Source: Halalkaliarchaeum desulfuricum
Lineage (GTDB): Archaea > Halobacteriota > Halobacteria > Halobacteriales > Haloferacaceae
Direction: 5' to 3'
Assembly: GCF_002952775.1 (NCBI RefSeq)
Contig: NZ_CP025066.1
Location: 2,294,001-2,358,000, forward strand
DNA: 64,000 nucleotides
In this document: one piece after another, positions 13,112 to 42,270 of the stretch
How positions within the stretch are numbered: position 1 is the first letter of the stretch
How the letters are laid out: every line of letters begins with the position of its first letter
The notes under the pieces: generated by a model
Database searches by the model: none
Seen by the model: only the letters and a program-made list of their open reading frames with translations
Told to the model about the DNA's origin: nothing
Translations under genes and position numbers: made by a program

Positions 13112-13165
13112 AGTGCGCGGGACAGGATTCGAACCTGCGGACCCCTATGGGACAGCGTCCTAAGC
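13112..13165 (-). other. attL: displaced 3' half of tRNA-Leu
   Basis: These 54 bases match 42186-42239 exactly. They span the tRNA-Leu(UAG) sequence from just past the discriminator through T arm, variable arm and 3' side of the anticodon stem into the anticodon loop, then diverge at 13166. Without the 5' half this copy cannot be a functional tRNA. It is the left attachment site of the integrated element. Confidence 0.92.
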
Positions 13166-13425: not shown

Positions 13426-13938
13426 CTATCGACGTAGAGTCACCTTGTCTGGCTCCGGCAACGGCTCCAGATAGTCGATACCCAGAGTGTAGTTGACATG
13501 GCCAAATGGAGACTCCTTTCGGACTCCATTCGTAATGCTGTCTTTCCACGCCCCACCGAAGAACGTTACCTCGTACCCGTCGAGATGACCAAGGACATAG
13601 TAGTCTGCATCGACCGCGTATTCTTTGACCATCAGTGCTTTCGGCTCTTTATTTGACGTTTTCACGTCTATGTCAGCGGGTTTCCCGTTGATTTCCGCAG
13701 CGAAGTCCTTTCCTCCGTCGCCCCACCTGCTGGTTGAGGTGTCTACAACCAGATCGGCGTACTCTGCAAACGCGAACTCACCCATGAGGCCTCGGTAGTT
13801 TCGCTCTTCTGGATCTACACCCCAGGTGTCCGACTCGTTGTTCCAGGCCTCGTTTTCTTCGAACGACTGGTTTCGTTCCTTCGCCATCTTACGGGCAAGC
13901 CGAGCATATCGCGGCGGTACTTTGATCGTGACAGTCAT
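13426..13938 (-). CDS. PD-(D/E)xK-type nuclease-like protein
   Basis: 170 residues starting MTVTIKVPPRYARLARKMAK. The pattern GEFAFAEYADL, then DFAAEINGKPADIDVKTSNK, matches the order of acidic residue and D-x-VK of the PD-(D/E)xK nuclease core. The following VKEYAVDADYYVLGHLDG and VTFFGGAW fit its later strands. Small proteins of this style occur in prophages and plasmids. The gene begins inside the last codons of the gene at 13935 (ATGA overlap), so the two are translated together. The nuclease fold is inferred from pattern, not from a named family. The 260 bases between attL and this gene hold nothing I can support. Confidence 0.6.
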   Translation of the reverse strand: MTVTIKVPPRYARLARKMAKERNQSFEENEAWNNESDTWGVDPEERNYRGLMGEFAFAEYADLVVDTSTSRWGDGGKDFAAEINGKPADIDVKTSNKEPKALMVKEYAVDADYYVLGHLDGYEVTFFGGAWKDSITNGVRKESPFGHVNYTLGIDYLEPLPEPDKVTLRR

Positions 13939-14903
13939 TCGTGAACCTCCGCCCCCGTTCGGAAGCTGGTGAGTTCGTCGATACGGCCCTCCAGGTCCTC
14001 GATCTCCTGGCGTAGCTCCTCAGCTTCTTCACCTTCTGTCGCCGCGAGTTGCTCCTTGAGGCCTTGGAGACGCGTTTCCTTGACCTCCTCGTCGACGTCG
14101 GCCTTGCGGACGTACTCACTCTCCTCGATGTCGTAGACGTCGCTCTCGGCCAGCTCAGTGACCTCCAAGGCGTCGTCGACCTTGCTCCGGTCGATACCCG
14201 TCACCCGCTCACGGTCGATTCCTTCGGCCTCCAGCTTCGCCAGTACCTCATCCTCGTCTTTCAGCGAGCGATTCCGACGCGTCGTACGCTGGACAGACCC
14301 GAAGGGGCCGCTCACGGGCCGGTCGTGATGCAGCCGGTTCAGCAGTACGTCAGCTACGTCCTGACGGAGGTCGTTGGCGTTGCGCTGGACGTCCGAGAGT
14401 AGGGTGTATAGGTTCACGAGCGCGTCCGTCTCCATCTCTGACAGTGTGGCCACGTCGTGGCGCTCAAGAGCGTCTACGAGCAACAGCGCGTCCGCATACA
14501 CGTCCAAGTCCGGCTCTGACCGTTCGTCGGTTTCATTGGCGGGTTCGGCATCGAGAAGCTGGCTGGTGGTCGGCCCATCCTTCTCGATGATCACGCCCGC
14601 GTCCTCGTCGATCTCGAACCGTGGGTGGAGACTCAAAACCGCCGGGTACGGATCCGCGTCAGGTGGGAGTCGGTCAAGCTCGAAGCCGTCCGGCTCGCCG
14701 GTGATGCGCCGATACAGGGTCTCGAATTGGTCACGCTGGAGTGGTCGTTTCTCGTCCCTATCCTCGAAGTCGATGATGACACGTTGCTCCTGCACGTTGG
14801 TGACCCGAAATCGCTTGTGCGAGAGTGGGGTGATCAGCGTCGCTCCCTCGGGGAGATCGTCGAGTTCGTCGAGGAGCGTGTGCCACGAGACGCTGAACGT
14901 CAT
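13935..14903 (-). CDS. uncharacterised element protein with C-terminal coiled coil
   Basis: 322 residues from the ATG at 14903 (MTFSVSWHTLLDELDDLPEG). The first 85 residues look like a compact beta-rich domain (ATLITPLSHKRFRVTNV, RVIIDFED, LQRDQFETLYRRI). The middle is helical with an acidic linker, and residues 270-315 are a strong coiled coil ending VKETRLQGLKEQLAATEGEE. No catalytic motif is visible. It is the first gene of a two-gene unit with the nuclease-like protein at 13426, overlapping by 4 bases, which suggests a partner or regulatory role. Family not recognised. Confidence 0.75.
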   Translation of the reverse strand: MTFSVSWHTLLDELDDLPEGATLITPLSHKRFRVTNVQEQRVIIDFEDRDEKRPLQRDQFETLYRRITGEPDGFELDRLPPDADPYPAVLSLHPRFEIDEDAGVIIEKDGPTTSQLLDAEPANETDERSEPDLDVYADALLLVDALERHDVATLSEMETDALVNLYTLLSDVQRNANDLRQDVADVLLNRLHHDRPVSGPFGSVQRTTRRNRSLKDEDEVLAKLEAEGIDRERVTGIDRSKVDDALEVTELAESDVYDIEESEYVRKADVDEEVKETRLQGLKEQLAATEGEEAEELRQEIEDLEGRIDELTSFRTGAEVHE

Positions 14904-15076
14904 ATCCGCGAAGAAGTGGCCGGAGGCTAAAATCGTGGGGGACGCTTCTCGGGCCGATCGGAGCCGTGGCCCTGGTGGCTGTTGGCACGAGCCCCCTCCA
15001 AATCTGCAAAACTCAGACGAGTATTTAAAACTCTCCGAGAGATTTATTACTCCGCACACTCATACACTCAGATGAG

Positions 15077-15657: not shown

Positions 15658-18600
15658 CTACGTACCGAATGTCACCTGTGACATCAATTGTGGCCGATCA
15701 TCTTCCTCCTCGTCCTCTTCGGGCGCGACGACCATCCAGCAGATCAGCTTCACCTCGTCTTCCTGAATCGGCGGGAGTGGATCGGGGGCCTCGAACGGCT
15801 GAAGACCCAGATCTTCGACCTTCTCGACGAGCTGACGCGACTTCTCAACCGGGGCAAGGGATTCATCCTCGTAGATCTCACGGAGTTCACGCTCGTACCG
15901 ACGACCCCACGGAGCCTCGACGGCCTCGACCGTCTCTTGAAGCTCGTCCTGGGTCATGTCGTCCGGCCAGTTCTCCCGAAGGTGCTGGGCGACCTCGCGG
16001 AACAGCCGCCGGATGTCGGGCTGCACGTTCAACGGGTCGGTCTGCTCTTGCCACTGCGTGTAGATGTCCGAACGGGCCGTCTCCCACGCGTCGTATACGC
16101 GGTCACGCATCGAGTCCGGAAGCATACGATCGGTTTCCTCGGTACACTCGATCCGCTTGAGACAGGTGAGCGTGTCTTGGACAATCTCGTCATCTTCCTC
16201 ATCCGTCTCCTCGGGGAGGAACCGCATGAACACCTCCTCGCCAATCCGAGCGCAGAAGAAGTATCCAGGCGTGTCGCCCTCAAACCCAGAGCCAGCCGCC
16301 CACGGAAGTGACGTGACCTGGTCTTCCCGTGTCTCCAGTCCCTTGCGGAGTTCCTGTCGGTACTCCTCACCGGAGTAGGCGGCCGCAGTCCCGCCGCCCT
16401 CCTCGTAGAAATCCCTGTCCTCCTCTTGGATCGAGCCGATGTCCTCGACGCGCTCCGCGAAGTTCTGATTCAACGTCTCCATGTCGGGGATGACGCCACC
16501 GCTCACGCCAATCGATCGGGCGGCCTGTGTGAGTTTCTGGCGTACCCGGTGTTCGAGTTCCAGGAGGTCGTCGAGACGATTTTCAGGGAAGAACGTGATC
16601 GGGTAGATCTCCGAGTGCGGTGAGTTCACGCGGTCGATGCGCCCATTCCGCTGGACCACCCGCATCGGGTTCCACGGGAGGTCGTAGTTGATGACCGTCC
16701 GTGCTTCCTGGAGATTGACACCTTGGCCAAGTACATCCGTGGCGATCAGGATGTCGTACTCGTCGGTGGCGTCCGGCGGCGCGTCCCCGGAGTTCGGTGC
16801 GAAGCCGTGAACCGCATCTTCGCGGCTTACTCCGTACTTCGCACCATCACCAACCACCGCCGCGATACGTCCCTCGTAGCACGACAGTTCATCGTCCTCC
16901 GCTACGACCTCCTCAAGATATTCGTAGATCCAGTCCACCGTATCTTCGTAGTAGGAGAACAACAGCACCTTGCGGTTCCGTTGGAACGCCGCCTCGACAT
17001 CCTTGTCTTCGAGTTCGCGTGCCTCAGCATCATCTCGCGCTCGCTCAACGACCTCGGAGAGGGTCTCACGGAGGGCATGGAGCTTCTGGTCGTCCTCGCG
17101 GCTCACACTCCGTGCGCCGTCCCGCCAGCGTTCGAGTATCTCGATGTCGTTCTCCAAATCGTCCTGGAGGCGTATTGGATCGAGATCGGCGGCTGACAGT
17201 GGAACCCGACCATCGGCGGCTTCTCCGAGTGCTTCATCCATCGCCTCGTCGCTATCCATCTCGACCCATTCGTCGATGGCGTCGGGGTCGGGGAAGTACC
17301 CCTCATCCATCAGCCGGAGCGCGGCACGGTTTTGCTGGATCATCCGGTCGAGTGTGTTGGCAAAGGCATGACTGGAGGACTCGAACCGCTTGAGCAGACC
17401 TGTTCGGAGGAGGCCCACAAGCGAGAGTTCCGACGCGTCCTCTTCACCTTCGAGGTAGTATGATGGGCGATAGCGGGCGAGTGTCAGCTCTGACTCCTCG
17501 TGTTCTCCGGCGGCCAAGCCCCGTGCAACATCGCGGAAGTAGTCGTCACTAAGCGTGTCCGAGAACGTGTAATCGACGCGCTGGGGGTTCGGATCGGGGA
17601 AGTTGATACGGACAGATCCGCCTTCGCCGTCGGGCATCATCGCGTCCTCGTAGTGATTCTTGATGAATCGGCGTGTCCGGCGGACAGTCGTCTCATCCAA
17701 CACGTCGAACAGCATATCGGGGCTGAGATCCGACGGGTCTTCGGACTGGGCCGTTTTGAACCGCTCACGGAGCGACCGGATGCCTTCGTTGGCGAAGGCG
17801 GCGTCGTTGCGGATGAAATAGTTCAGCAGGTAGTACAGGTCCCACAGCGAGTTGTTGACCGGCGTAGCCGTTAGCATGACCACGTCCTTCGGTGGATCAC
17901 CACGGAGGAGCGTGCGAAGGGCGTGAGACTGTTGCGTACCAGGGTTGCGGAACGCGTGGGCTTCGTCGATGACGACAAGCTGGTACTCGTCCACGTCCAG
18001 ATCCAGTACGTTCCTGTCACCACCGAGTTGGCTCTCGTTACGAAGTTCGGCGTAAGAGACCGTCTCGAACTGGATTCCCCACTCAGGTCCCTTCTGTTCC
18101 CACATACCGTCTCGGAGATAGGCGGGCGAAATCACGAGCGCACGCTGGCGGTTCTCCTGGACGTACTGGTGGAGCAACTCACCCGCGATGTAGGTCTTCC
18201 CGAGGCCGACCTCGTCTGCGATGATGACGCCACCGTGTCGCTTGAGGAAGCGGTTGGCCCGCCTGACAGCATCTTCCTGGAAGTTCACGAGATTGATCCC
18301 ACCGTCTTCGTCCTCTTCTTCGGCCAGTTCGTCACCGTAGCGTTCCCAGAGCACCCGAAGGTAGATCAGGTACGGGCGATAGGGTTCGAATCGTTCTTCA
18401 TAGAGGGCGGCCAGATCGTACGGTTCGCTGGCGGCCCACAGTTCCTCAAACCAGTCGTGGACGCGGTCAGTGACGTGCGGGTCGTAGGTGCCAAGGTTCA
18501 GTTCGAGGTTCGAGTTCAGTCCCGCACCGGTGAAGTTCGACGAGCCAGCGATCACACCCTCTGCGTCCGAGAACAGGTAGGCCTTCCCGTGGACGAACTT

Positions 18601-19023
18601 GTCCTCGTGGCGGCGAACCTCGACCTGGTCGCTTCGGAGGAAGTCAACGAGTTCCTGAAGTCCCTGATCAACGTCGCGGGAGAAACCCAGCAGGTTGCGG
18701 TCGCGTTCGAGATTCTCATCGAGTGATTGGAGAGCCTCGTCGATGCGCTGGCGTTCGTAGGCCTCACCACGTGGCTCCTCGGGTTGTCGCCAGCGTTCGA
18801 TGCCTTCCTGATCGGGCTGAGCACCGATGAGGAGACGAACCTGTCCGACGTGTTCGAGGCCATCTGAAATCGAGAAGTATCCGCGTGGGTTGAAGTATCC
18901 TGTTACTACGTCGAGGTCGGGCTCGTCAGCAAGATGGCCATCGAGGTAGTCGAGGTACTCGTCGATAGCGCGGGCGAGCGTGTTTCCGTTGCGGTTATCG
19001 ACGAACTGTGGGCGCTCAGTCAT
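15658..19023 (-). CDS. PLD-nuclease/SNF2-type helicase fusion
   Basis: 1121 residues from the ATG at 19023. The N-terminal domain has one phospholipase-D HKD motif, FVHGKAYLFSD (about 144-153), followed by GSSNFTGAGLNSNLEL. A superfamily 2 helicase core follows: IADEVGLGKTY (about 268-278), VVIDEAHAFRN, MLTATPVNNSLWD, LLFSYYEDTVDWIY, ATDVLGQGVNLQEA and QRNGRIDRVNS (motif VI). The last 250 residues are acidic and uncharacterised. This pairs a nuclease with a translocase. The start overlaps the methylase stop (ATGACTGA), so the two proteins are made together. The set resembles the drmD/drmMI core of class 1 DISARM or a type I-like restriction system, but drmA, drmB and a separate specificity subunit are absent. 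An upstream in-frame start would read inside the methylase gene and is unlikely. Confidence 0.88.
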   Translation of the reverse strand: MTERPQFVDNRNGNTLARAIDEYLDYLDGHLADEPDLDVVTGYFNPRGYFSISDGLEHVGQVRLLIGAQPDQEGIERWRQPEEPRGEAYERQRIDEALQSLDENLERDRNLLGFSRDVDQGLQELVDFLRSDQVEVRRHEDKFVHGKAYLFSDAEGVIAGSSNFTGAGLNSNLELNLGTYDPHVTDRVHDWFEELWAASEPYDLAALYEERFEPYRPYLIYLRVLWERYGDELAEEEDEDGGINLVNFQEDAVRRANRFLKRHGGVIIADEVGLGKTYIAGELLHQYVQENRQRALVISPAYLRDGMWEQKGPEWGIQFETVSYAELRNESQLGGDRNVLDLDVDEYQLVVIDEAHAFRNPGTQQSHALRTLLRGDPPKDVVMLTATPVNNSLWDLYYLLNYFIRNDAAFANEGIRSLRERFKTAQSEDPSDLSPDMLFDVLDETTVRRTRRFIKNHYEDAMMPDGEGGSVRINFPDPNPQRVDYTFSDTLSDDYFRDVARGLAAGEHEESELTLARYRPSYYLEGEEDASELSLVGLLRTGLLKRFESSSHAFANTLDRMIQQNRAALRLMDEGYFPDPDAIDEWVEMDSDEAMDEALGEAADGRVPLSAADLDPIRLQDDLENDIEILERWRDGARSVSREDDQKLHALRETLSEVVERARDDAEARELEDKDVEAAFQRNRKVLLFSYYEDTVDWIYEYLEEVVAEDDELSCYEGRIAAVVGDGAKYGVSREDAVHGFAPNSGDAPPDATDEYDILIATDVLGQGVNLQEARTVINYDLPWNPMRVVQRNGRIDRVNSPHSEIYPITFFPENRLDDLLELEHRVRQKLTQAARSIGVSGGVIPDMETLNQNFAERVEDIGSIQEEDRDFYEEGGGTAAAYSGEEYRQELRKGLETREDQVTSLPWAAGSGFEGDTPGYFFCARIGEEVFMRFLPEETDEEDDEIVQDTLTCLKRIECTEETDRMLPDSMRDRVYDAWETARSDIYTQWQEQTDPLNVQPDIRRLFREVAQHLRENWPDDMTQDELQETVEAVEAPWGRRYERELREIYEDESLAPVEKSRQLVEKVEDLGLQPFEAPDPLPPIQEDEVKLICWMVVAPEEDEEEDDRPQLMSQVTFGT

Positions 19024-22000
19024 CGTTTCGCGTTCCCGCCGCGCGTTCTTCTTCGCGGTCGGCATGGTCAAGATCGAGTCGGTCAGCCCAGCTGGCATAG
19101 TAGTCGAGGACGCGGTTCAGACGCTCTTCGTAGTCCCAGCCGTCGTGGAACGTCTCGAAGATCACCTCGACGTGCTCGCGGGAGAGGCCATAGAGATGTG
19201 CCACGACGGCGTCCAGTTCGTAAATCTTCTCCTGTTTCGTGTCTTCGTCGAGTGGACCGTACTCCACTCCAACTGCGTCGGCCCAGTCCGCGTACCGATC
19301 GTCAACGGCGGCAAGACGACCAGATAACTGGATGACACGTTTACGAAGGGTGCTATCTTTTCCTGGTCGAGGTATAGGAAATGAATTAACCAGATAGTAT
19401 TTTAGCCCCGTTTCTACGAAACGTCGGGCGTACCAATCCAACGGAATAGAACTTAATACACCGAGTAAATATGCTTCATCCTGCTCAGTTCCCCTCGGCC
19501 AAAGGAAGAATGGGGACTTCTCAACTAAGAATGTATTAGGTGGAACCAGACAAGGGATGACTGTTCTGCTATCAGTTGCCCGTGCAACGTCTCTAAAGCT
19601 AACCCTCGGTGTTAAACATGTCAGTGTGTCCTCATCAAACACCCAATCTTCGTCCATTTCATAATATGCTGATCTCTTACCCGCATATTGATACGAGTTC
19701 TCGCGTGACTCCTGAATGTAATCAAGGACAACATCAGGATCGGCCCATGCATATCGTTCTCCAGTATCAGGATTCCAGATGTTGAAAGATTTTCCAGTAT
19801 ATACTGGCCAGAAATCCTCGTCTGGATCGTCTGTGAAATGCATCAGTCGGGTTCCATCATCCTTCGTCTTATCTTGGGATGTATGTAGCTCAGACGTTGG
19901 CCTTGCTCTCCAGCAACCTTCTTTGTTCAAACCCAGAGGGGGTGTATCGGACATTTGTTTAAATACTCCCACTGATGCTGAATTGGCTGGAAGTGCCGGA
20001 AATGATGCTTTATCTGTCCAACCTTTCGCCTCATTCACGCTGAAATAATAGGGAGGTTCATTAACACCTTTATTGAAACTTTCAGCGTCAGGATACGGCC
20101 CTCTAATAGGGACAGTCTTCTCACCCTCCGTCTCACCCTTCGTGAAACTAAATAATCCTATAGTAAATCGAGGTTCCATTCCCTCAAAAGCCCAATTCGA
20201 ATGATTTTTCAGGAATGTGAGATCTTGTATCGAGCCTTCTTCCATCACCTTTCGACGGAAAGGCTCCGAACCCGCGTTGGAAAACGCGCCTCGTGGTAAG
20301 ACCACACCGACAGCCCCTTGATCTCGAACTAAGTTCCAAAATCTCCAGCTAAACGCGAGATACATATCTGGATCTCCACTTCCAATTCCAGGATAAGGGC
20401 CTTCTGTGAGGATTTTTGCTCTCTTTTCTTCTTCAATTTGCTCTTTTTGCAACTTTTGAACAAGATCTGGTCGCTCCGTTTCCAGCTCATCAATCCGAGC
20501 CTCTCGTTTTGTTGATGAGAGGCCACGGAGACCGGGATAGTGCCTTGCCCAGAACTCGTGTCGCTCTACCTTCGCTTTCTCCCATGGTGGATTTCCAACA
20601 ATCACGTCGAAGCCCGATCCATCACCATCAAAGACCTCTGGAAAAGACGCCGGGAAATGTAGTGGATCAGTGGACGCCAGTATATCCTGAGCTTGCTCGT
20701 AACACTCCTCTTGCGTAATGTCGATATTGGTATCCGAAACGGGGTCTGTATTGATCTCGTCATCAATTCGTGACGCCGCCAATATGTCGAACCGCGCCCG
20801 AACCTCTTCCAGTTTCTTCTCAATCTCCTCCCGCGTCTCACGTGCCTCTTTAACCTGCTCGGCACTGGCATCCGCGAAGCTCCCTAATTGATCGATGTCG
20901 TCCCGGATCTCGTTCATCACGCTCTGACCACCCGCGAACATCCCCAGCGACGACTGCTCTACGTCAAGGATGTCGGTTACCTCGTCAAGCGTCCCAATCC
21001 CAGCCAGCGAGTCGCCAGTCACGAGGTTGTAATCAAGGAATGTCAGCGGAAGCCCTGGAACAAAGGTGTGAACCCAGATCGACAGGCGCGCAAGTTCGGT
21101 TGCAAGCGGGTTCAGGTCAACACCGTAGATGCACCGTCGGGCGACCTGACGACGGAGAAGTTGTCCCCGCTCAACTGGCGGTGCGTACTCCTCATCGTCG
21201 AAAGCCTCCAGTGCGGCGTCTTCCAGATTATCGAGTTCCTCTTCAACCGGTGGTAGCGGGTTCTCGGTGAGATACTTATAGAGTCGAGATTCAATCCGGT
21301 CAACAGCACCCACCAGGAAGTGTCCAGAGCCCATAGCGATGTCGGACACGCGAATGTCGAAGAACGCATCTGCGGCGGCGTTCTCGCCTTCCTCTTCCCG
21401 GAGTCGGTCAATCCGGTCGATGTGGTCATCCAGCGCAGGCTCCAGCGAGTGGTCCAATAGGTGCTCAACGAACCGCGTTTTCGTGTAGTACGTACCGGTC
21501 GCCTTTCGCTCTCCAGACTGTCCGTGGAGGTAGACCTCTCCCTCCTCGACGACCACGTCATCGTCACCAAGCGTCTGCTGGCCGTCAGTATCGACCGGTT
21601 CGTAGTGGCCTTCGTCGTCGATAGTGAGCGGCTGGTCGGCCACCGAAAGTTCCGATTCCAGTAGTCCCTCGTAGATCACGCCGAACTCCCGGACGCCGAT
21701 GTTGCGGAAGTCTACTGGTCCCTGGAAACCGTCCTCGGTTTCGTCTACGAGCAACCGAAACAGCACGGGACCGAACTCGGCGTTGTTCAGCCGGAGATCC
21801 GCTAACATTGCTCCCGCGTCTGATATGTCGGGGTCTTCGGAGAGGAGCGTCCCGTCGTAGGCGGGAAGCCCGAGTTCGTCGTGTCCGTGGTGGACCGCCC
21901 GCGTGAGGTGCATCACGTCGTCCCAGTGGTCGTAGAACGAGTCGTCGAACTCGCCGCCGTCCTGAATGAAGTCGTGGAGATTCTTGGCCTTGCGCTTGAG

Positions 22001-23155
22001 CGAGTTCTCGTCGTACCGGGCGTTTCGACGCCGGGGGAGGAACTCCTCGTCTTCGGCGTAGGCGATGAACAGAAGTCGATAGAGAAGTATCAACGTCATC
22101 CGATAGGTCTCATCAAGCTCTTCCTTCGTCGGATCGTCGAGATCACGTGCTTTGGCGATGGCTTCCGCGAGGTCAGGGATCACGTCGTCGTAGATGCGTT
22201 CGCGGAGCCGCGCCCCGAGATCAGCGGCGTAGTCCTTTGACCGCTCCATGATGTCGTGGAGCGTCCCGTCGTCGCGGAGGGCGTTCGCAGAGAACAACAG
22301 CCAGAGGTACGCCGCTTTCTCGTCAGCGAGCAGTGTCGTGTTCACCTCGACGTAGGTGTCCGTCCGTCCGCGCGAGCCGAAGCCAGCGTCCGGATTCGTC
22401 GTGTACAGTCGGAGTGTATCGCCACTGTTCCCGATGACGTATTCGAGGTTGCGCTTGTCGGCCTCGTTGAGCGCATAGGCCACCGGCGACTGGCCCACGA
22501 ACCGTTCTTGCGCGTGATCGAAGGACTCGTCCTCCTGGAGGAACATCGCTACGGCACGTTCGTGGCCGTCGCTGGTGTCCTTTAACACGTAGCTCTGATC
22601 GGTGAGCTGGTCGATCTCGAAGTTGAGGCCTTTGATCAGCTCGCGGGGATCGTCGTCGATAGCCTGGCGGGCCTGTTCGGCTGCATCTTCCCAATCGTCG
22701 CGCTCGGGGACACCAACCTTCAGCTCGTGCGTCGAGAGAAGACCCTGATTCCGTAGCCCGGTCAGCTCCTCGTCGAGCTGCGGGAGCATCTCGGTGAGGA
22801 ACCGCTGGGCCGCGTGTCGGTCAGGCTGGTCGAGAGCGGTGTCACAGACCCGATCTGCTTGCCCGCGGTCGACATCCCGGTAGACTGGTGGTTCTTCGCC
22901 ACTCGGCCCGCACAGCCCCGCATAATCGTCGTAGAGGGCAACGACGAGGATCGGGTTAACCCGTCCACCGCGTCGCTCTTTGTACGCCTTTTGTAGGAAC
23001 TCTTTGGTCGGTCGTTCGCCGTGATCGACGACAATGACCTCCAGCGCGCTCGGTCCATTGCCTTGATAGAACTCGAAATCGCTGCCAGCCGGATCATCAG
23101 CCCATGGACGGCCGGAGCGAGATTCGAGAAAGTCCGAAGCCATACCAAAGGACAT
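19016..23155 (-). CDS. Eco57I/PglX-like adenine-specific DNA methylase
   Basis: 1379 residues. The SAM motif DIAMGSGHFLVGAVDRI lies near residue 605, GVDLNPLATELARLSIWVHT near 680, and the catalytic VGNPPWEKAKVE near 853, the N6-adenine (gamma-type) methylase pattern. The N-terminal 450 residues include a possible nuclease-like or coupling domain; the C-terminal 450 probably hold target recognition. It precedes and overlaps the PLD-helicase, so it should both protect host DNA and set specificity. A TATA-like AAATATATGA about 20 bases before the ATG at 23155 suggests a leaderless operon start. The DNA from about 19340 to 20870 is clearly more AT-rich than the rest of the gene, suggesting an exchanged specificity half. 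Confidence 0.9.
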   Translation of the reverse strand: MSFGMASDFLESRSGRPWADDPAGSDFEFYQGNGPSALEVIVVDHGERPTKEFLQKAYKERRGGRVNPILVVALYDDYAGLCGPSGEEPPVYRDVDRGQADRVCDTALDQPDRHAAQRFLTEMLPQLDEELTGLRNQGLLSTHELKVGVPERDDWEDAAEQARQAIDDDPRELIKGLNFEIDQLTDQSYVLKDTSDGHERAVAMFLQEDESFDHAQERFVGQSPVAYALNEADKRNLEYVIGNSGDTLRLYTTNPDAGFGSRGRTDTYVEVNTTLLADEKAAYLWLLFSANALRDDGTLHDIMERSKDYAADLGARLRERIYDDVIPDLAEAIAKARDLDDPTKEELDETYRMTLILLYRLLFIAYAEDEEFLPRRRNARYDENSLKRKAKNLHDFIQDGGEFDDSFYDHWDDVMHLTRAVHHGHDELGLPAYDGTLLSEDPDISDAGAMLADLRLNNAEFGPVLFRLLVDETEDGFQGPVDFRNIGVREFGVIYEGLLESELSVADQPLTIDDEGHYEPVDTDGQQTLGDDDVVVEEGEVYLHGQSGERKATGTYYTKTRFVEHLLDHSLEPALDDHIDRIDRLREEEGENAAADAFFDIRVSDIAMGSGHFLVGAVDRIESRLYKYLTENPLPPVEEELDNLEDAALEAFDDEEYAPPVERGQLLRRQVARRCIYGVDLNPLATELARLSIWVHTFVPGLPLTFLDYNLVTGDSLAGIGTLDEVTDILDVEQSSLGMFAGGQSVMNEIRDDIDQLGSFADASAEQVKEARETREEIEKKLEEVRARFDILAASRIDDEINTDPVSDTNIDITQEECYEQAQDILASTDPLHFPASFPEVFDGDGSGFDVIVGNPPWEKAKVERHEFWARHYPGLRGLSSTKREARIDELETERPDLVQKLQKEQIEEEKRAKILTEGPYPGIGSGDPDMYLAFSWRFWNLVRDQGAVGVVLPRGAFSNAGSEPFRRKVMEEGSIQDLTFLKNHSNWAFEGMEPRFTIGLFSFTKGETEGEKTVPIRGPYPDAESFNKGVNEPPYYFSVNEAKGWTDKASFPALPANSASVGVFKQMSDTPPLGLNKEGCWRARPTSELHTSQDKTKDDGTRLMHFTDDPDEDFWPVYTGKSFNIWNPDTGERYAWADPDVVLDYIQESRENSYQYAGKRSAYYEMDEDWVFDEDTLTCLTPRVSFRDVARATDSRTVIPCLVPPNTFLVEKSPFFLWPRGTEQDEAYLLGVLSSIPLDWYARRFVETGLKYYLVNSFPIPRPGKDSTLRKRVIQLSGRLAAVDDRYADWADAVGVEYGPLDEDTKQEKIYELDAVVAHLYGLSREHVEVIFETFHDGWDYEERLNRVLDYYASWADRLDLDHADREEERAAGTRNDD

Positions 23156-23542: not shown

Positions 23543-24646
23543 CTACCCGAACAGCTCGTGGTCTGCGTACTCCTCGATGGCTCTCGGATGGAGGTAATCA
23601 ATCAGATCAACCAACTCCTGGGCCATCTCGCTCACCTCGATCTCGTCCCCGTCGACTTCGACATCCTTGGTCAGAATGCCCATCGACTGTGTGTCGTCTT
23701 CAGCCAAGGTGTACCCATCGAGTGACTCGGCGTGCGAGGCAAGGAATTGTCGAAGCTCTTCATGCTGGGCTGGCTCTGCGTTCCAGAGGTTCACACGAAA
23801 TCGAACCAAACCCTGTTCCTCAATGCGCGGTTGCATCCCGTATTTCAGCGGTCCAGGATGCTCCGGATGGTCGGATCCAAATCCGATAGAACGCTTGTGC
23901 GTCGGCTTTGCGATCCGTTCAGCGTCCTCGAAGTGTAGTTCGTCTTTGACCTGCGGAAAAACATGATCTCTAACGGCGATGATGAGCTCCGAATAGTCCT
24001 CGGAGTCTGACGTGCTCGTGACGGTCCCGGTCGGTTCCTCACTCAACGGACGGCGGACACCATCGGTCGTGAGCAGTTCGATACCTTTGTTCTCATCCCG
24101 ATAGGTCGAGTACTCGACGGCCACGACATCGACGCCGTGTTCCCGCAGAAAGTCGGCCATATTGAGTGATACGTCCTGAAAGTCAGTTCCGACGACTACG
24201 AGCCGCTGTTCGTTGTTGAACTCCCGTTTGGAGAGCACATCATCGAGGTCGAAATACTCGCAGTGCGCCTCGCGAAGGCTCAGGATGTCGTTCGGCTCGG
24301 TGTGGCCCTGCTCCTCGCGGAGAAATTGGCGGTACTGATCGTCGAGATACTCGTAGTCGACGTTCCTAATTTCAGAGGCGTATTCGAGCGCCTGTGCAAC
24401 GATGTCCCGCGGGGCGCGATCACGCTTGAGTTCCACGATTACGGTATCTCCCCGCTCGTCAACGCCGAGGATGTCGAAGATGCCGCCTTCCCCGGGACTC
24501 CCCTGACGGCCAACGTAGAGAACTTCGACTTCGCCGATTTTGGCTCCATCCGTCCGTACCAGTCGTTGTTCGAGGTTCGCTTCCGTGTCAAGTTCGGATT
24601 CAGGTACTCGTTTCATGTCATCTTGCTCCACGAGATACACTTCCAT
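23543..24646 (-). CDS. NucS/DUF91-type endonuclease
   Basis: 367 residues starting MEVYLVEQDDMKRVPESELD. Residues 15-110 contain the NucS/DUF91 nuclease signature: TEANLEQRLV, GEGGIFDILGVDERGD, VIVELKRDRAPRDIVAQALE and YASEI, where the D...ELK residues form the PD-(D/E)xK active site. The C-terminal half (from about 190) is a separate uncharacterised domain. In archaea full NucS cuts branched or mismatched DNA; this longer protein shares only the nuclease domain. It is divergent from a PadR-type regulator across a 112-bp region with a palindrome. With the upstream helicase/methylase it forms a defence-like cluster, although it is transcribed from its own promoter. Confidence 0.82.
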   Translation of the reverse strand: MEVYLVEQDDMKRVPESELDTEANLEQRLVRTDGAKIGEVEVLYVGRQGSPGEGGIFDILGVDERGDTVIVELKRDRAPRDIVAQALEYASEIRNVDYEYLDDQYRQFLREEQGHTEPNDILSLREAHCEYFDLDDVLSKREFNNEQRLVVVGTDFQDVSLNMADFLREHGVDVVAVEYSTYRDENKGIELLTTDGVRRPLSEEPTGTVTSTSDSEDYSELIIAVRDHVFPQVKDELHFEDAERIAKPTHKRSIGFGSDHPEHPGPLKYGMQPRIEEQGLVRFRVNLWNAEPAQHEELRQFLASHAESLDGYTLAEDDTQSMGILTKDVEVDGDEIEVSEMAQELVDLIDYLHPRAIEEYADHELFG

Positions 24647-24698
24647 GCACCGCCCATCCAACGCGATCAATATCAAACTACTGAACAAGTCTAACTTT

Positions 24699-34062: not shown

Positions 34063-34276
34063 AGGGTATTACCCATATGTATATTGTATTTGAATGATTA
34101 TAAAGACAACTTTTTGATATTTCTGGAAATTTCGTTTGCTACGATACGGGGACAGGGAATGGATTACAATCCAGCTCGCTCATATCAACAGCCATATAGG
34201 TACGAGCTTCCAAAGTAGATCCACAGCCTACCGTATCTGCGACACTTTGATTTCCTGTGTCGCACCACTACACTGT

Positions 34277-35620
34277 GTGTCAGTCGAAAAGCGATTACAG
34301 GAGTTGGTGCAGCGTTTAAACAGGCTACCTGAGACGGATGAACCCCCACCAACCACACTCCAGATACTCGGACGTAACCACCAAGAGCAGGACTGGCAAC
34401 GCCTCCTGTTTCATTTCCTCTCGCCCAAGGAAGGCCACGGCCTCAACCATGCACTCTTGGAACACCTATTGTCGTCGCTATCCGACCGAGATGATCTGGA
34501 CTATACGTTCTCTCGACTGGATCTTCAGGACATCAAGATCGAAACTGAGGTCGTTACCTCTAATGACACTCGACCCGATGCGGTTCTCTGGCTACCGGGT
34601 GACTGGTTCATTTGCTGGGAGCTGAAACTTTGGGCGTCCGAGACACATGAGCAAACCAGAGCGTATATCGATGCCTCATCGTTCCCAGCGATCGATCTCT
34701 CGAAAGACGATGTACCCGTCGACAATCGCTACTACATCTACCTCGCCCCCGAGAGTGCATCACCACCGGAGGCTAACGAGTTCGTTCAGATTTCTTGGGA
34801 GTGGATCGCTTCGGAACTCCAGGCGTTCCTTGCGAAGAGCCAGGGCGGGTATCCGGCACGAACGACAGCACAGCTTGAAGACTTCATCAGCACGATACAG
34901 CAGGAGCTGACCATGACAGAACACCAAGAGAACCAGCAAGAGAAAGCTCAACTGTACTTTGACTACTACGACGAACTGCAAGACGTACAGAGCGCGTTTG
35001 AGAACCAGTGGGATGACTTCACGGATAACTGGGGTCTACGTCTCGCCGGAGAGTTGGATGGTGTCGAGATCGTAGAGATCCCGGATCTTCCAGACAACCA
35101 CGTCGGGATCGAACTGAATCCAGACTCCGAAGACTCCGATAGATGGATTTTCCGCCAGGGAAGTTCCTGGGCGGGTATCGCCAAGGAACAATGGCGGCGA
35201 CGGAGAACTGATAACCACGTTGTCATCTACGGTGCCCCTGATGACGACAACTACGCCCACATCACCCTATATCATCGGCTTGAAAAGAATCGTAAGAAGG
35301 CGATCCAGAACGGTATATTGGAACTTACGCTTTGGCACGGCAACAGTAGCGACAATCAGTTCTATAAGCTGGTCAACGAACGAGTCAGCAACAAGATTGA
35401 CGAGCGAGGGTATGAACTCCCGCCTACAGTTGACTTAACCAGTCGTACTGGAAATATACTTACGGCAACGTACAACATCCCTATCGCCGAGCACGACGAC
35501 TTTTTTGATGCCTACACTGCGGGCCTGGGGGGTGCGTTCGTTGACTTGGTTGTTGAGAACCCCGAACTCATCACAATCATCACTGAGGCCTTTGAAGAGT
35601 CCCTTGATGAGTACTATTAA
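34277..35620 (+). CDS. PD-(D/E)xK nuclease-family protein
   Basis: 447 residues if the GTG at 34277 (MSVEKRLQELVQRLNRLPET) is used; the open frame continues upstream to 34136 without a better start. The nuclease core reads QEQDWQRLLFHFLSP (Glu), RPDAVLWLPGDWFICWELKL (D...ExK) and HEQTRAYIDASS, the PD-(D/E)xK pattern of restriction-type enzymes. A C-terminal half of about 230 residues after a coiled-coil linker (EHQENQQEKAQLYFDYYDEL) has a beta-rich domain of unknown type, perhaps a sensor. It is divergent from the GHKL/RarA-like pair. Likely role: standalone defence nuclease. Confidence 0.75.
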   Translation: MSVEKRLQELVQRLNRLPETDEPPPTTLQILGRNHQEQDWQRLLFHFLSPKEGHGLNHALLEHLLSSLSDRDDLDYTFSRLDLQDIKIETEVVTSNDTRPDAVLWLPGDWFICWELKLWASETHEQTRAYIDASSFPAIDLSKDDVPVDNRYYIYLAPESASPPEANEFVQISWEWIASELQAFLAKSQGGYPARTTAQLEDFISTIQQELTMTEHQENQQEKAQLYFDYYDELQDVQSAFENQWDDFTDNWGLRLAGELDGVEIVEIPDLPDNHVGIELNPDSEDSDRWIFRQGSSWAGIAKEQWRRRRTDNHVVIYGAPDDDNYAHITLYHRLEKNRKKAIQNGILELTLWHGNSSDNQFYKLVNERVSNKIDERGYELPPTVDLTSRTGNILTATYNIPIAEHDDFFDAYTAGLGGAFVDLVVENPELITIITEAFEESLDEYY

Positions 35621-39607: not shown

Positions 39608-39634
39608 TTGTTCCGACTATCGGACATTACGATA

Positions 39635-40402
39635 ATGAGCTGGCTACATCACATCGACCGGGCGAGACGGACCACGGTCCCGGTCGTCGTCGACAAGCAA
39701 CAGGCCGGGCCACTCCCACCCGGATTCGAAGCACAGGGACTCACGATCAACGGTCTCTGGGGTGTCTACGAGCGCCAACGCGGCATCGAAAAGATTCAAA
39801 TCATCGAACTCCCCACCCAGTATAGGGTCTCCGTATCCAACCCTGTCGCTGGAACCAACCAGCTCCCGCAACCTGCCGGTCAGTCGAACCATGGTGGAGA
39901 CGCCCTGAAAGGACTCGCGGCCCTCGGACTGGGAACCCTCGGTGCTGTCGCAATCGGAAAGGCGCTCAAGGGCTCGCAGAAAAGCACCGTTCCCGACCCA
40001 AAACAAGCCCACCGCGTGTTCATCAGCCACTCTTGGACCTACGAGGATCACTACAAAGAGGTGAAAGAGCTGCTCGATGACGCCTACGGATTCGAATACT
40101 TCGACCACAGCGTATCCTCTGACGACCCGATCGACGCCCAACTACCGAACCACCTCCGAAAGAAGATTCGTGACCAGATACAGTCGACATCCGTTGTCCT
40201 CGTGTTAGCTGGGATGTACGTGGCATACAGCGACTGGATCAAGGAGGAGATCGAGATAGCGAACGAGATGGAGAAGCCGATTATCGGCGTTGTCCCGGCG
40301 AAGAACGAGCGTGCACCTACTATCGTGCAGGCGAAAGCCACGGAACTGGTCGAAGCCGACGGGGCCGAAATCCTGGACGCGATCGAACGGCACGCAACAT
40401 GA
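39635..40402 (+). CDS. TIR-like (MTH538/ThsB-type) domain protein
   Basis: 255 residues from ATG 39635 (MSWLHHIDRARRTTVPVVVD). The first 75 residues are a beta-rich domain I do not recognise; residues 85-110 are a glycine/alanine-rich hydrophobic stretch (GLAALGLGTLGAVAIGKALK) that may touch the membrane. From about 122 comes a TIR-like domain: HRVFISHSWTYEDHYKEVKE, FEYFDHSVSSDDPID, IRDQIQSTSVVLVLAGMYVA and YSDWIKEEIEIANEMEKPII, with a likely catalytic glutamate in the KEEIE helix. This is the DUF1863 type used in Thoeris ThsB. The stop overlaps the start of the membrane-protein gene (ATGA), marking a two-gene unit. Confidence 0.85.
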   Translation: MSWLHHIDRARRTTVPVVVDKQQAGPLPPGFEAQGLTINGLWGVYERQRGIEKIQIIELPTQYRVSVSNPVAGTNQLPQPAGQSNHGGDALKGLAALGLGTLGAVAIGKALKGSQKSTVPDPKQAHRVFISHSWTYEDHYKEVKELLDDAYGFEYFDHSVSSDDPIDAQLPNHLRKKIRDQIQSTSVVLVLAGMYVAYSDWIKEEIEIANEMEKPIIGVVPAKNERAPTIVQAKATELVEADGAEILDAIERHAT

Positions 40403-40866
40403 CTGACGACGACGGTGCCTCCGATGGCGATCGATCAGAGCTTATCGACCAGTACACGACCTATGTGGATACGACGTTGAACGTTAGCAACCGGCGGATG
40501 CGGAACAATCGTTTCTACGTCCTCCTTCTCTCCGGCACCCTCGCCGTAGTCTCCGTGCTCGCGGACACCCAGATCATCGAGGAGGTCGGGCTCCTAATCG
40601 CCGGCCTACTCGGCTTGGCGCTCTGCATACTTTGGTATCTCAGCATCGTCTCCTACAAGCAGCTGAACAGCGGGAAGTACGAGATAATCCAGGCGATGGA
40701 GAAAGACTTGCCTGCGGAGCCGTTCGCCAACGAATGGGACGTCCTCGACGAAGGGAGAGACTGGAGGACCTATATCACCCATACCCGAGTTGAACGCAAA
40801 ATACCCGGGGTTCTCGCCGTCCCATATCTTATCATCACGATATACGCGACCATCAGGCTCGTGTAA
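40399..40866 (+). CDS. small membrane protein, RipA/8xMP-like, TIR partner
   Basis: 155 residues. LIDQYTTYVDTTLNVSNRRM RNNRFY... is a helix with an RRMRNN motif leading into the first membrane span (YVLLLSGTLAVVSVLA). A second span is VGLLIAGLLGLALCILWYLS, and a third near the C-terminus is VLAVPYLIITIYATIRLV. This arrangement matches what I recall of the RipA/8xMP family of octameric small membrane proteins. Coupled to a TIR protein, it is a candidate membrane effector. The family name is from memory and needs a profile search. Confidence 0.68.
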   Translation: MTDDDGASDGDRSELIDQYTTYVDTTLNVSNRRMRNNRFYVLLLSGTLAVVSVLADTQIIEEVGLLIAGLLGLALCILWYLSIVSYKQLNSGKYEIIQAMEKDLPAEPFANEWDVLDEGRDWRTYITHTRVERKIPGVLAVPYLIITIYATIRLV

Positions 40867-40964: not shown

Positions 40965-42131
40965 TTAGCCCATCTTGTCCAGGGCGTCTCGACGGTCTTC
41001 TACAGGCACCTGGTCGTACTTCATCGTCGTCATCGGATTCCTATGCCGAAGCTGGGCTTTCGCAGCTGCAAGGCCCCGTTCCTTCGCCATGTACGTCCCA
41101 ACAGAGTGTCTGATCGTGTACCAGCTCATTTTCCGGTTCGCGGTTTCGATCCCCGCCTCGTCACATAGGCGATGGAGCAACCGGCGCAGGCTCTTCGAAC
41201 TATAACGGTTCCCCCGAGCAGTGAGCCATAGTGCGTCCGTATCGTCGTACCGATCGTACCGTTCCCGTTCTTCGAGCCATCGCTCAAGGTACGCAGTCGT
41301 CTCATCCTTCAAGCTCACCGTCCAGTTTCCGACGTTCTTCGATGACTCCTCCTTTGGGATCCGCAATACGCTGTTCTGGAGGTCAACCCAACGTACTGAC
41401 GCAGTACGGACCTCCGCAGGTCGCAGGCCAGCATCAAGGCTTGCGCTCACGAGTGATGGTTCCTTCCACCCAATGACCTTCTCCCAGTCGTTATCGTTGA
41501 TCGCGTCCCGTGGCTTGTTGAGGAGATGGCCGAGATGGGTGAGCCAGCCTTCTCGCTCTTCACCATAGACGTCGCCGGGAGAGGGGATGTCACCGATTGT
41601 GAGCACGGCCTGACGAATCTTCCGTCGCTCTTCAACGCTTAGGAAGTCTTGGGGTTGATGGTTCCCACCGGAGCTATCGAACTGGTAGTCGTACTCCCAC
41701 TCGTCGTAGTTCTTGTCGTGGTGCAGCCACTTGTTGTAGCGTCGAACGCCCTCCTGAAGCTTCCCTTTCGCCGTTTCGGACTGGTCGTAGTCAAACGCGA
41801 GCCACTCGATGAACGCTTTCGCTTCTTCTTCTGTCGGGGGCATCGAGTAGCCGCCGAACTTCTCCCAGCGCCACTTATCGAACCGGGCAGTCCGGTACGC
41901 AGTGCCGTAAACGGTGTACTCAGAGTAGCCTGAGGCACTCTCAGGATCCTTCCCAACGTTCAACAGCCATGACATGAATCGGAATCGTTGCTTCCGATAG
42001 TTGATAAGTTGCTTGTCATTCATCAAGCTTTCATGCGATTTTGGTATTACCACAATGCCACGGTCGAGGTCGATCTCGTCACCCTCCATTTCGGGACAGC
42101 GCGAGAGTGTCAGCGGTAACTCATGTTCCAT
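40965..42131 (-). CDS. int: tyrosine recombinase (element integrase)
   Basis: 388 residues. The catalytic domain shows the first arginine in LDAGLRPAEVRTASVRWVDL, SWYTIRHSVGTYMAK (box II, with Tyr in place of the usual first His), AQLRHRNPMTTMKYDQV with the second His and the nucleophilic tyrosine. The N-terminal 170 residues form a SAM-like core-binding domain (INYRKQRFRFMSWLLNVGKD). The gene ends about 55 bases from the 3' end of tRNA-Leu, the classic place for an integrase that inserts into that tRNA. The first ATG (42131, MEHELPLTLSRC) is used; starts further in are possible. Confidence 0.92.
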   Translation of the reverse strand: MEHELPLTLSRCPEMEGDEIDLDRGIVVIPKSHESLMNDKQLINYRKQRFRFMSWLLNVGKDPESASGYSEYTVYGTAYRTARFDKWRWEKFGGYSMPPTEEEAKAFIEWLAFDYDQSETAKGKLQEGVRRYNKWLHHDKNYDEWEYDYQFDSSGGNHQPQDFLSVEERRKIRQAVLTIGDIPSPGDVYGEEREGWLTHLGHLLNKPRDAINDNDWEKVIGWKEPSLVSASLDAGLRPAEVRTASVRWVDLQNSVLRIPKEESSKNVGNWTVSLKDETTAYLERWLEERERYDRYDDTDALWLTARGNRYSSKSLRRLLHRLCDEAGIETANRKMSWYTIRHSVGTYMAKERGLAAAKAQLRHRNPMTTMKYDQVPVEDRRDALDKMG

Positions 42132-42187
42132 AGCTTACCAGCCGAGGTGAAAACAGGCGGTAGGGCGTCTGGTACGCCCGATCTGAG

Positions 42188-42270
42188 TGCGCGGGACAGG
42201 ATTCGAACCTGCGGACCCCTATGGGACAGCGTCCTAAGCGCTGCGCCGTTGACCGCTTGGCTACCCGCGC
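42188..42270 (-). tRNA. tRNA-Leu (anticodon UAG), attR of the element
   Basis: On the minus strand the acceptor GCGCGGG at the 5' end pairs with CCCGCGC before discriminator A at 42188. The anticodon stem CAGCG/CGCTG holds loop CTTAGGA with anticodon TAG, a long class II variable arm (TCCCATAGGGGTCC region) follows, then the T loop TTCGAAT. 83 bases, no CCA, no intron. The half from 42188 to 42239 is duplicated at 13112-13165. Confidence 0.96.

Follow-up and report, generated by a model that had tools for sequence, protein, structure and literature searches.

Organization of the MT/HEL gene pair

We analyzed a pair of overlapping genes in a 64,000-nt stretch of the Halalkaliarchaeum desulfuricum genome (NZ_CP025066.1, positions 2,294,001 to 2,358,000; this whole stretch is referred to as the window, and all positions are given in its numbering). 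The first gene, MT (19016-23155, minus strand), encodes a protein of 1379 amino acids (aa), which Pfam, PADLOC, and Foldseek identify as an Eco57I-type N6-adenine methylase with gamma motif order and a C-terminal recognition region. The second gene, HEL (15658-19023, minus strand), encodes an HKD/phospholipase D (PLD) nuclease fused to a SNF2-family translocase of helicase superfamily 2 (SF2). Both open reading frames (ORFs) are intact in this 3.3-Mb single-contig genome, and an 8-nt overlap, ATGACTGA (19016-19023, minus strand), joins the MT stop and the HEL start. This arrangement agrees with an initial annotation of the DNA, which had described a nuclease-SF2/SNF2 helicase polypeptide translationally coupled to a 1379-residue Eco57I/PglX-like methylase. 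The HEL ORF can be extended to 19098, which yields 1146 aa, the numbering used for HEL residues unless stated otherwise. Since M26 (position 19023) is near-invariant in an alignment of relatives and overlaps the MT stop, the true start is probably at 19023, giving a protein of 1121 aa (15658-19023), and the start at 19098 is less plausible.

Three domains of HEL scored above the Pfam cut-off, namely PLDc_2 (residues 148-221), SNF2-rel_dom (287-477), and Helicase_C (706-824). The HKD active-site segment within PLDc_2 (18502-18591, minus strand) comprises H170, K172, G185-S-S-N188, and E199, and these residues are unchanged in 55 of 55 HEL sequences. The same holds for the key Walker A, DE, and motif V/VI residues of the SNF2 motor, the first lobe of which (17668-18240, minus strand) carries the conserved Walker A ADEVGLGKT, DEAH, and TATPVNN motifs, and the second (16627-16983, minus strand) motifs V-VI (TDVLGQGVNLQ...QRNGRIDR). 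Each HEL chain has one HKD motif.

The catalytic motifs of MT, X (GTYYTK), I (AMGSGHF), and IV (GNPPW), form invariant alignment columns (20531-21523, minus strand). Its N-terminal domain (residues 1-180; 22616-23155, minus strand) is predicted with high structural confidence and has conserved residues E39, P49, R61, and R65. We found no ExK nuclease motif in this domain across 47 sequences: E39 is kept in 46 of them and is followed by V or I and then by a small residue, with no lysine. The predicted structure of the N-terminal 545 residues (predicted local distance difference test score, pLDDT, 89) gave no significant match in the PDB. A nuclease in the MT N-terminus was rejected because both a catalytic motif and a significant fold match are missing. 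This leaves HEL as the nuclease of the pair, and its HKD site is the sole complete nuclease site that we found in the two proteins. The low ratios of nonsynonymous to synonymous substitution (dN/dS), 0.05-0.11 for HEL and 0.04-0.07 for the MT core, reflect purifying selection and indicate that both genes are maintained.

A hypervariable region of MT, residues 860-1290 (19286-20578, minus strand), has a predicted structure (mean pLDDT 88) that aligns with CamA, BrxX/PglX, M.BseCI, and MmeI in Foldseek. Over 55 HEL/MT pairs, the identity of HEL followed that of the MT core (r = 0.92); identity in the region 860-1290 tracked neither HEL nor the MT core closely (r 0.58 and 0.60). The pairs in loci L121 and L128, for example, share ~91% identity in both the MT core and HEL, and 38% in the recognition region. 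Among close haloarchaeal relatives, silent differences amount to 0.78-0.90 in the recognition region, which is saturation, versus 0.45-0.67 in the adjoining core. Because silent sites are saturated there and not in the core, the region has been replaced by recombination, a behavior expected of a target-recognition domain. From these comparisons, we interpret residues 860-1290 as a target-recognition domain that is swapped by recombination. Nuclease and translocase would reside in HEL, methylase and recognition in MT, which is the division of functions between two proteins that the initial annotation had anticipated.

Conservation and spread of the pair

When 84,980 species genomes were scanned with the MT alignment, 261 MT relatives emerged, and the following counts refer to the best 80 of these 261. 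HEL lies downstream of MT on the same strand in 66 of the 80 loci, far more often than chance would give; the contig ends first in ten, and HEL is absent in four. Among the 66 linked loci, the two frames abut or overlap in 48, with an overlap of exactly 4 nt in 16. No third gene recurs beside the pair in the linked loci. The genes lying between MT and HEL in 18 gapped genomic loci are not conserved (M78 peptidase, HNH, and Mrr_N genes are among those identified), and a trypsin-like gene occupies this place in the viral contig L201.

Judged by record titles, these 80 MT relatives belong to haloarchaea, Actinomycetota, Pseudomonadota, Planctomycetota, Gemmatimonadota, and Chloroflexota, and further to Rhodothermales, Myxococcota, Armatimonadetes, Eisenbacteria, and Prochlorococcus; in all, haloarchaea and some ten bacterial phyla are represented, but many source genomes are metagenome bins, so that single placements may be wrong. 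Both proteins are 37-45% identical over their full length to plasmid homologues in Euzebya, Mycobacterium, Rhodococcus, and Paenarthrobacter. In relatives, the pair is found on plasmid pHLAC01 of Halorubrum lacusprofundi, on four actinobacterial plasmids, and on three viral-collection contigs (L200-L202). In H. desulfuricum, it is carried in a 29-kb tRNA-Leu integrative island (13112-42239).

In one locus, G294, HEL is intact with all its motifs and adjoins an MT remnant that consists of residues 1251-1361 only. An uncontrolled nuclease-motor should impose a cost on a cell that lacks protection, yet this HEL survives, as would be expected if HEL alone were harmless. This single case suggests that HEL needs MT to act. 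States of decay are seen in L036, where an intact HEL accompanies an MT remnant, and in L093, where MT is intact and the adjacent HEL is broken into two frames. In addition, L089 (G405:C3:310000-328000) holds a second MT copy, cut at residue ~1021 and without HEL.

Relation to class 1 DISARM

The initial annotation had regarded the pair as a reduced relative of class 1 DISARM without drmA and drmB. Indeed, neither gene appears in the annotation of the locus neighborhood. With haloarchaeal class 1 DISARM-type loci as positive controls, we found MT to be 35-39% identical over ~600 residues to their methylases, and it is closest to haloarchaeal DrmMI, yet forms its own clade in an unrooted tree. 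In the loci L099 and L103, moreover, the methylase gene directly precedes a DrmD-like gene with the same 8-nt overlap as in MT/HEL, and a PLD nuclease (DrmC) is also a component of DISARM. In contrast, the PLD nuclease of the pair is fused to the helicase, and HEL reached only 155 bits with the DrmD profile (cut-off 610), compared to 424-444 bits for the helicases of haloarchaeal DISARM loci, which have no N-terminal PLD region. The HKD-Snf2 helicases that are paired with methylases of other subfamilies in methanogens and haloarchaea (L038-L048) are nearer to HEL, at a mean identity of 28% over 971 aa, than is DrmD, at 27% over 432 aa. MT did match the DrmMI profile (237 bits), but its best PADLOC profile was the type IIG profile REase_MTase_IIG (PDLC03620), with 857 bits over nearly the full length. 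These similarity values are used in place of a claim of discordant gene trees, which was dropped because discordance cannot be demonstrated from an unrooted tree with three clades. The kinship with class 1 DISARM is thus upheld by methylase homology, gene order, and the 8-nt overlap, whereas membership is not supported by the helicase; on these sequence comparisons, we consider the pair a relative of class 1 DISARM and not a member.

The positive controls L099 (1543-14642) and L103 each hold a DrmA-like protein and a DrmD-like helicase with NCBIfam scores of ~395 (cut-off 950) and ~425 (cut-off 610), respectively. Because these scores lie far below the cut-offs, archaeal DISARM is probably under-annotated.

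Comparison with other systems

Type ISP enzymes such as LlaGI and LlaBIII combine nuclease, translocase, gamma-methylase, and a C-terminal recognition domain in one polypeptide, the nuclease being Mrr-like (PD-QXK) (PMC3874165). The pair has the same four components, including the C-terminal recognition domain, but is divided into two polypeptides and has an HKD (PLDc_2) nuclease. With type III restriction-modification (RM) systems it shares the two-subunit organization, in which the methylase holds specificity and the other subunit is a motor-nuclease; it differs in that MT is of the Eco57I/gamma type and not N6_N4_Mtase, and in that the HEL nuclease is HKD and not PD-(D/E)XK. Unlike in type I systems, no separate HsdS gene recurs, and the recognition region lies inside MT. 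By analogy, MT/HEL would correspond in its mode of action to a type ISP or type III system made of two subunits.

The DUF499-centred BREX-related Type-2 (Hma-like) systems, for which restriction-modification has been proposed, have an HKD-endoDNase fused to the N-terminus of a Swi2/Snf2 helicase, together with an N6-methylase; their core is a DUF499 ATPase, nearly always accompanied by DUF3780 (PMC12839542). The MT/HEL pair likewise consists of an HKD-Snf2 helicase and an N6-methylase. However, DUF499 is missing from the surroundings of the pair, and of 17 genomes that contain the pair or what is left of it, 11 gave no DUF499 match anywhere. Pfam scans of the window neighbors and intervening genes gave no DUF3780 match, although no search by that name was made. 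A DUF499-like protein (1092-aa frame) is encoded in the H. desulfuricum genome at G000:C1:704056-704583, 1.6 Mb from the pair, and perhaps belongs to a separate BREX-related system. In CxC-ABC/PbeABCD systems, whose foundation is an ABC ATPase and a DndE-like protein, an HKD nuclease is fused to an SF2 helicase (PbeA) (PMC10853773). The HKD-SF2 fusion is common to both, but no ABC ATPase or DndE-like gene recurs beside MT/HEL. Another association of the HKD-Snf2 family was observed in L052:8740-17721, where an HKD-Snf2-like helicase stands beside a type III methylase and a restriction gene.

Neither the HKD-Snf2 fusion nor this class of methylase is new in itself. The best PADLOC profile for HEL, C3a139 "HKD+Snf2" (188 bits), is a single-protein label, as is PDLC03620 for MT, and neither covers the two-gene unit. 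We found no name for a stand-alone two-gene HKD-Snf2/methylase unit, nor the same layout under another name, in profile libraries and open-access papers (subscription papers and REBASE were outside the search); the components are labelled separately, and only multi-gene relatives were found. Within this scope, nothing turned up under any name that describes this free-standing pair, its wide distribution, or the exchange of its recognition domain.

Proposed function and alternative explanations

In our assessment, MT/HEL is likely a self-sufficient two-subunit ATP-dependent RM system. The C-terminal recognition domain of MT would read a specific DNA site, at which MT would place N6-methyladenine (m6A). 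At an unmethylated site, MT would engage HEL in a complex, whereupon the SNF2 motor would translocate along double-stranded DNA and the HKD/PLD domain would cut, most likely upon collision or stalling. HEL would rely on MT for targeting and, since each chain has one HKD motif, probably acts as a dimer. The unit, which has a putative role in defense, moves on integrative islands and plasmids and, by swapping the recognition domain, would change its specificity.

Several observations weigh against this proposal. HEL residues 900-1146 have no assigned fold, and the dependence of HEL on MT rests on a single orphan locus. The four intact MTs without HEL nearby (L125, L151, L152, and L153) imply that MT may also work alone. 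Furthermore, the non-significant fold matches of the MT N-terminus include the type IIG enzyme DrdV, EcoR124I HsdR, and Holliday-junction resolvases, and the structural prediction leaves some room for a cryptic nuclease there. The same matches, DrdV and the PD-(D/E)XK resolvases in particular, would fit a stand-alone type IIG restriction-methylase that cuts alone, with HEL as an accessory or independent helicase, and so would the PADLOC profile that MT matches best. We regard this explanation as unlikely, given that the N-terminal domain of the methylase polypeptide has no ExK motif and that MT almost never occurs without HEL, which co-diverges with it; free-standing type IIG enzymes need no motor.

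The close relationship of MT to haloarchaeal DISARM methylases and the gene order and overlap shared with L099 and L103 could also reflect a DISARM variant or remnant that uses drmA, drmB, and drmC supplied in trans. This is considered slightly less likely still: neither drmA nor drmB recurs beside the pair, and the N-terminal part of HEL is not DrmD-like. The DUF1998 (MZB) match in the same genome, in an ~800-aa frame 1.2 Mb away, belongs to a kind that most of the tested genomes contain, the Haloferax volcanii control among them. Least probable is a BREX-like or Pgl-like exclusion mechanism, in which phage replication would be blocked without cutting and the HKD domain would have another role. 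Although the C-terminal part of MT resembles BrxX/PglX as well as CamA, the invariance of the HKD residues argues against this mechanism, as do the lack of any further gene recurring beside the pair and the distance to the DUF499 match. Both DUF1998 and DUF499 were rejected as partners because they occur only at distant loci.

Going beyond the two-subunit RM system itself, we tentatively consider, while leaning slightly against it, that the pair might be the minimal free-standing form of a "methylase + SNF2 motor" core that recurs in DISARM, BREX type 3, ARMADA, and Hma. It would then constitute a distinct cross-domain type of ATP-dependent RM, comparable to a type ISP enzyme that is divided between two subunits and equipped with an HKD nuclease, and the larger systems may have arisen around such pairs.

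Despite its conservation in archaea and in numerous bacterial phyla, the pair currently goes unseen as a unit: databases label MT as "type IIG" or "hypothetical protein" and HEL as "helicase-related protein". Its recognition would correct many annotations and may explain m6A motifs that have no assigned methylase today. The pair also offers a simple system in which to study the transfer of an unmethylated site from a methylase to a SNF2 motor and an HKD nuclease. Halorubrum lacusprofundi, which carries it on pHLAC01, is cultured and has a known virus; in the laboratory strain kept at UNSW, this plasmid has been lost (PMC10544981).

The integrative island and neighboring genes

The island is bounded by 54-bp att repeats, one within tRNA-Leu at the proximal end (42186-42239, plus strand) and a perfect copy of the tRNA-Leu 3' end at the distal end (13112-13165, plus strand). 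A tyrosine integrase gene adjoins tRNA-Leu (40965-42131, minus strand; Phage_integrase, E 1.6e-18), and the G+C content is 0.565 inside the island versus 0.62-0.64 outside.

The other cargo looks defensive. It comprises a TIR/ThsB gene paired with one for an 8xMP membrane protein, and one gene each of the PD-(D/E)XK, NucS-like, and GHKL ATPase types. The NucS_C-like PD-(D/E)XK gene (PADLOC PDC-S11; 23543-24688, minus strand) lies upstream of MT. It was rejected as a third component of the system because close relatives (63-67% identity) adjoin the pair in no loci other than L082 and L086, with weak or no matches elsewhere. The TIR/ThsB-like gene is directly followed by the 8xMP membrane-protein gene (39608-40866, plus strand), possibly as a separate two-gene defense unit. 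The island also holds a PDDEXK_4 gene (PADLOC PDC-S26; 34136-35620, plus strand), and in L097 a relative (50%) of this gene lies next to the pair. Finally, a two-gene cassette encoding proteins of 374 and 170 aa (13426-15059, minus strand) is found again close to the pair in L082, L085, and L097, and L100 encodes the 374-aa protein as well, in the vicinity of a methylase and a helicase of DISARM type.

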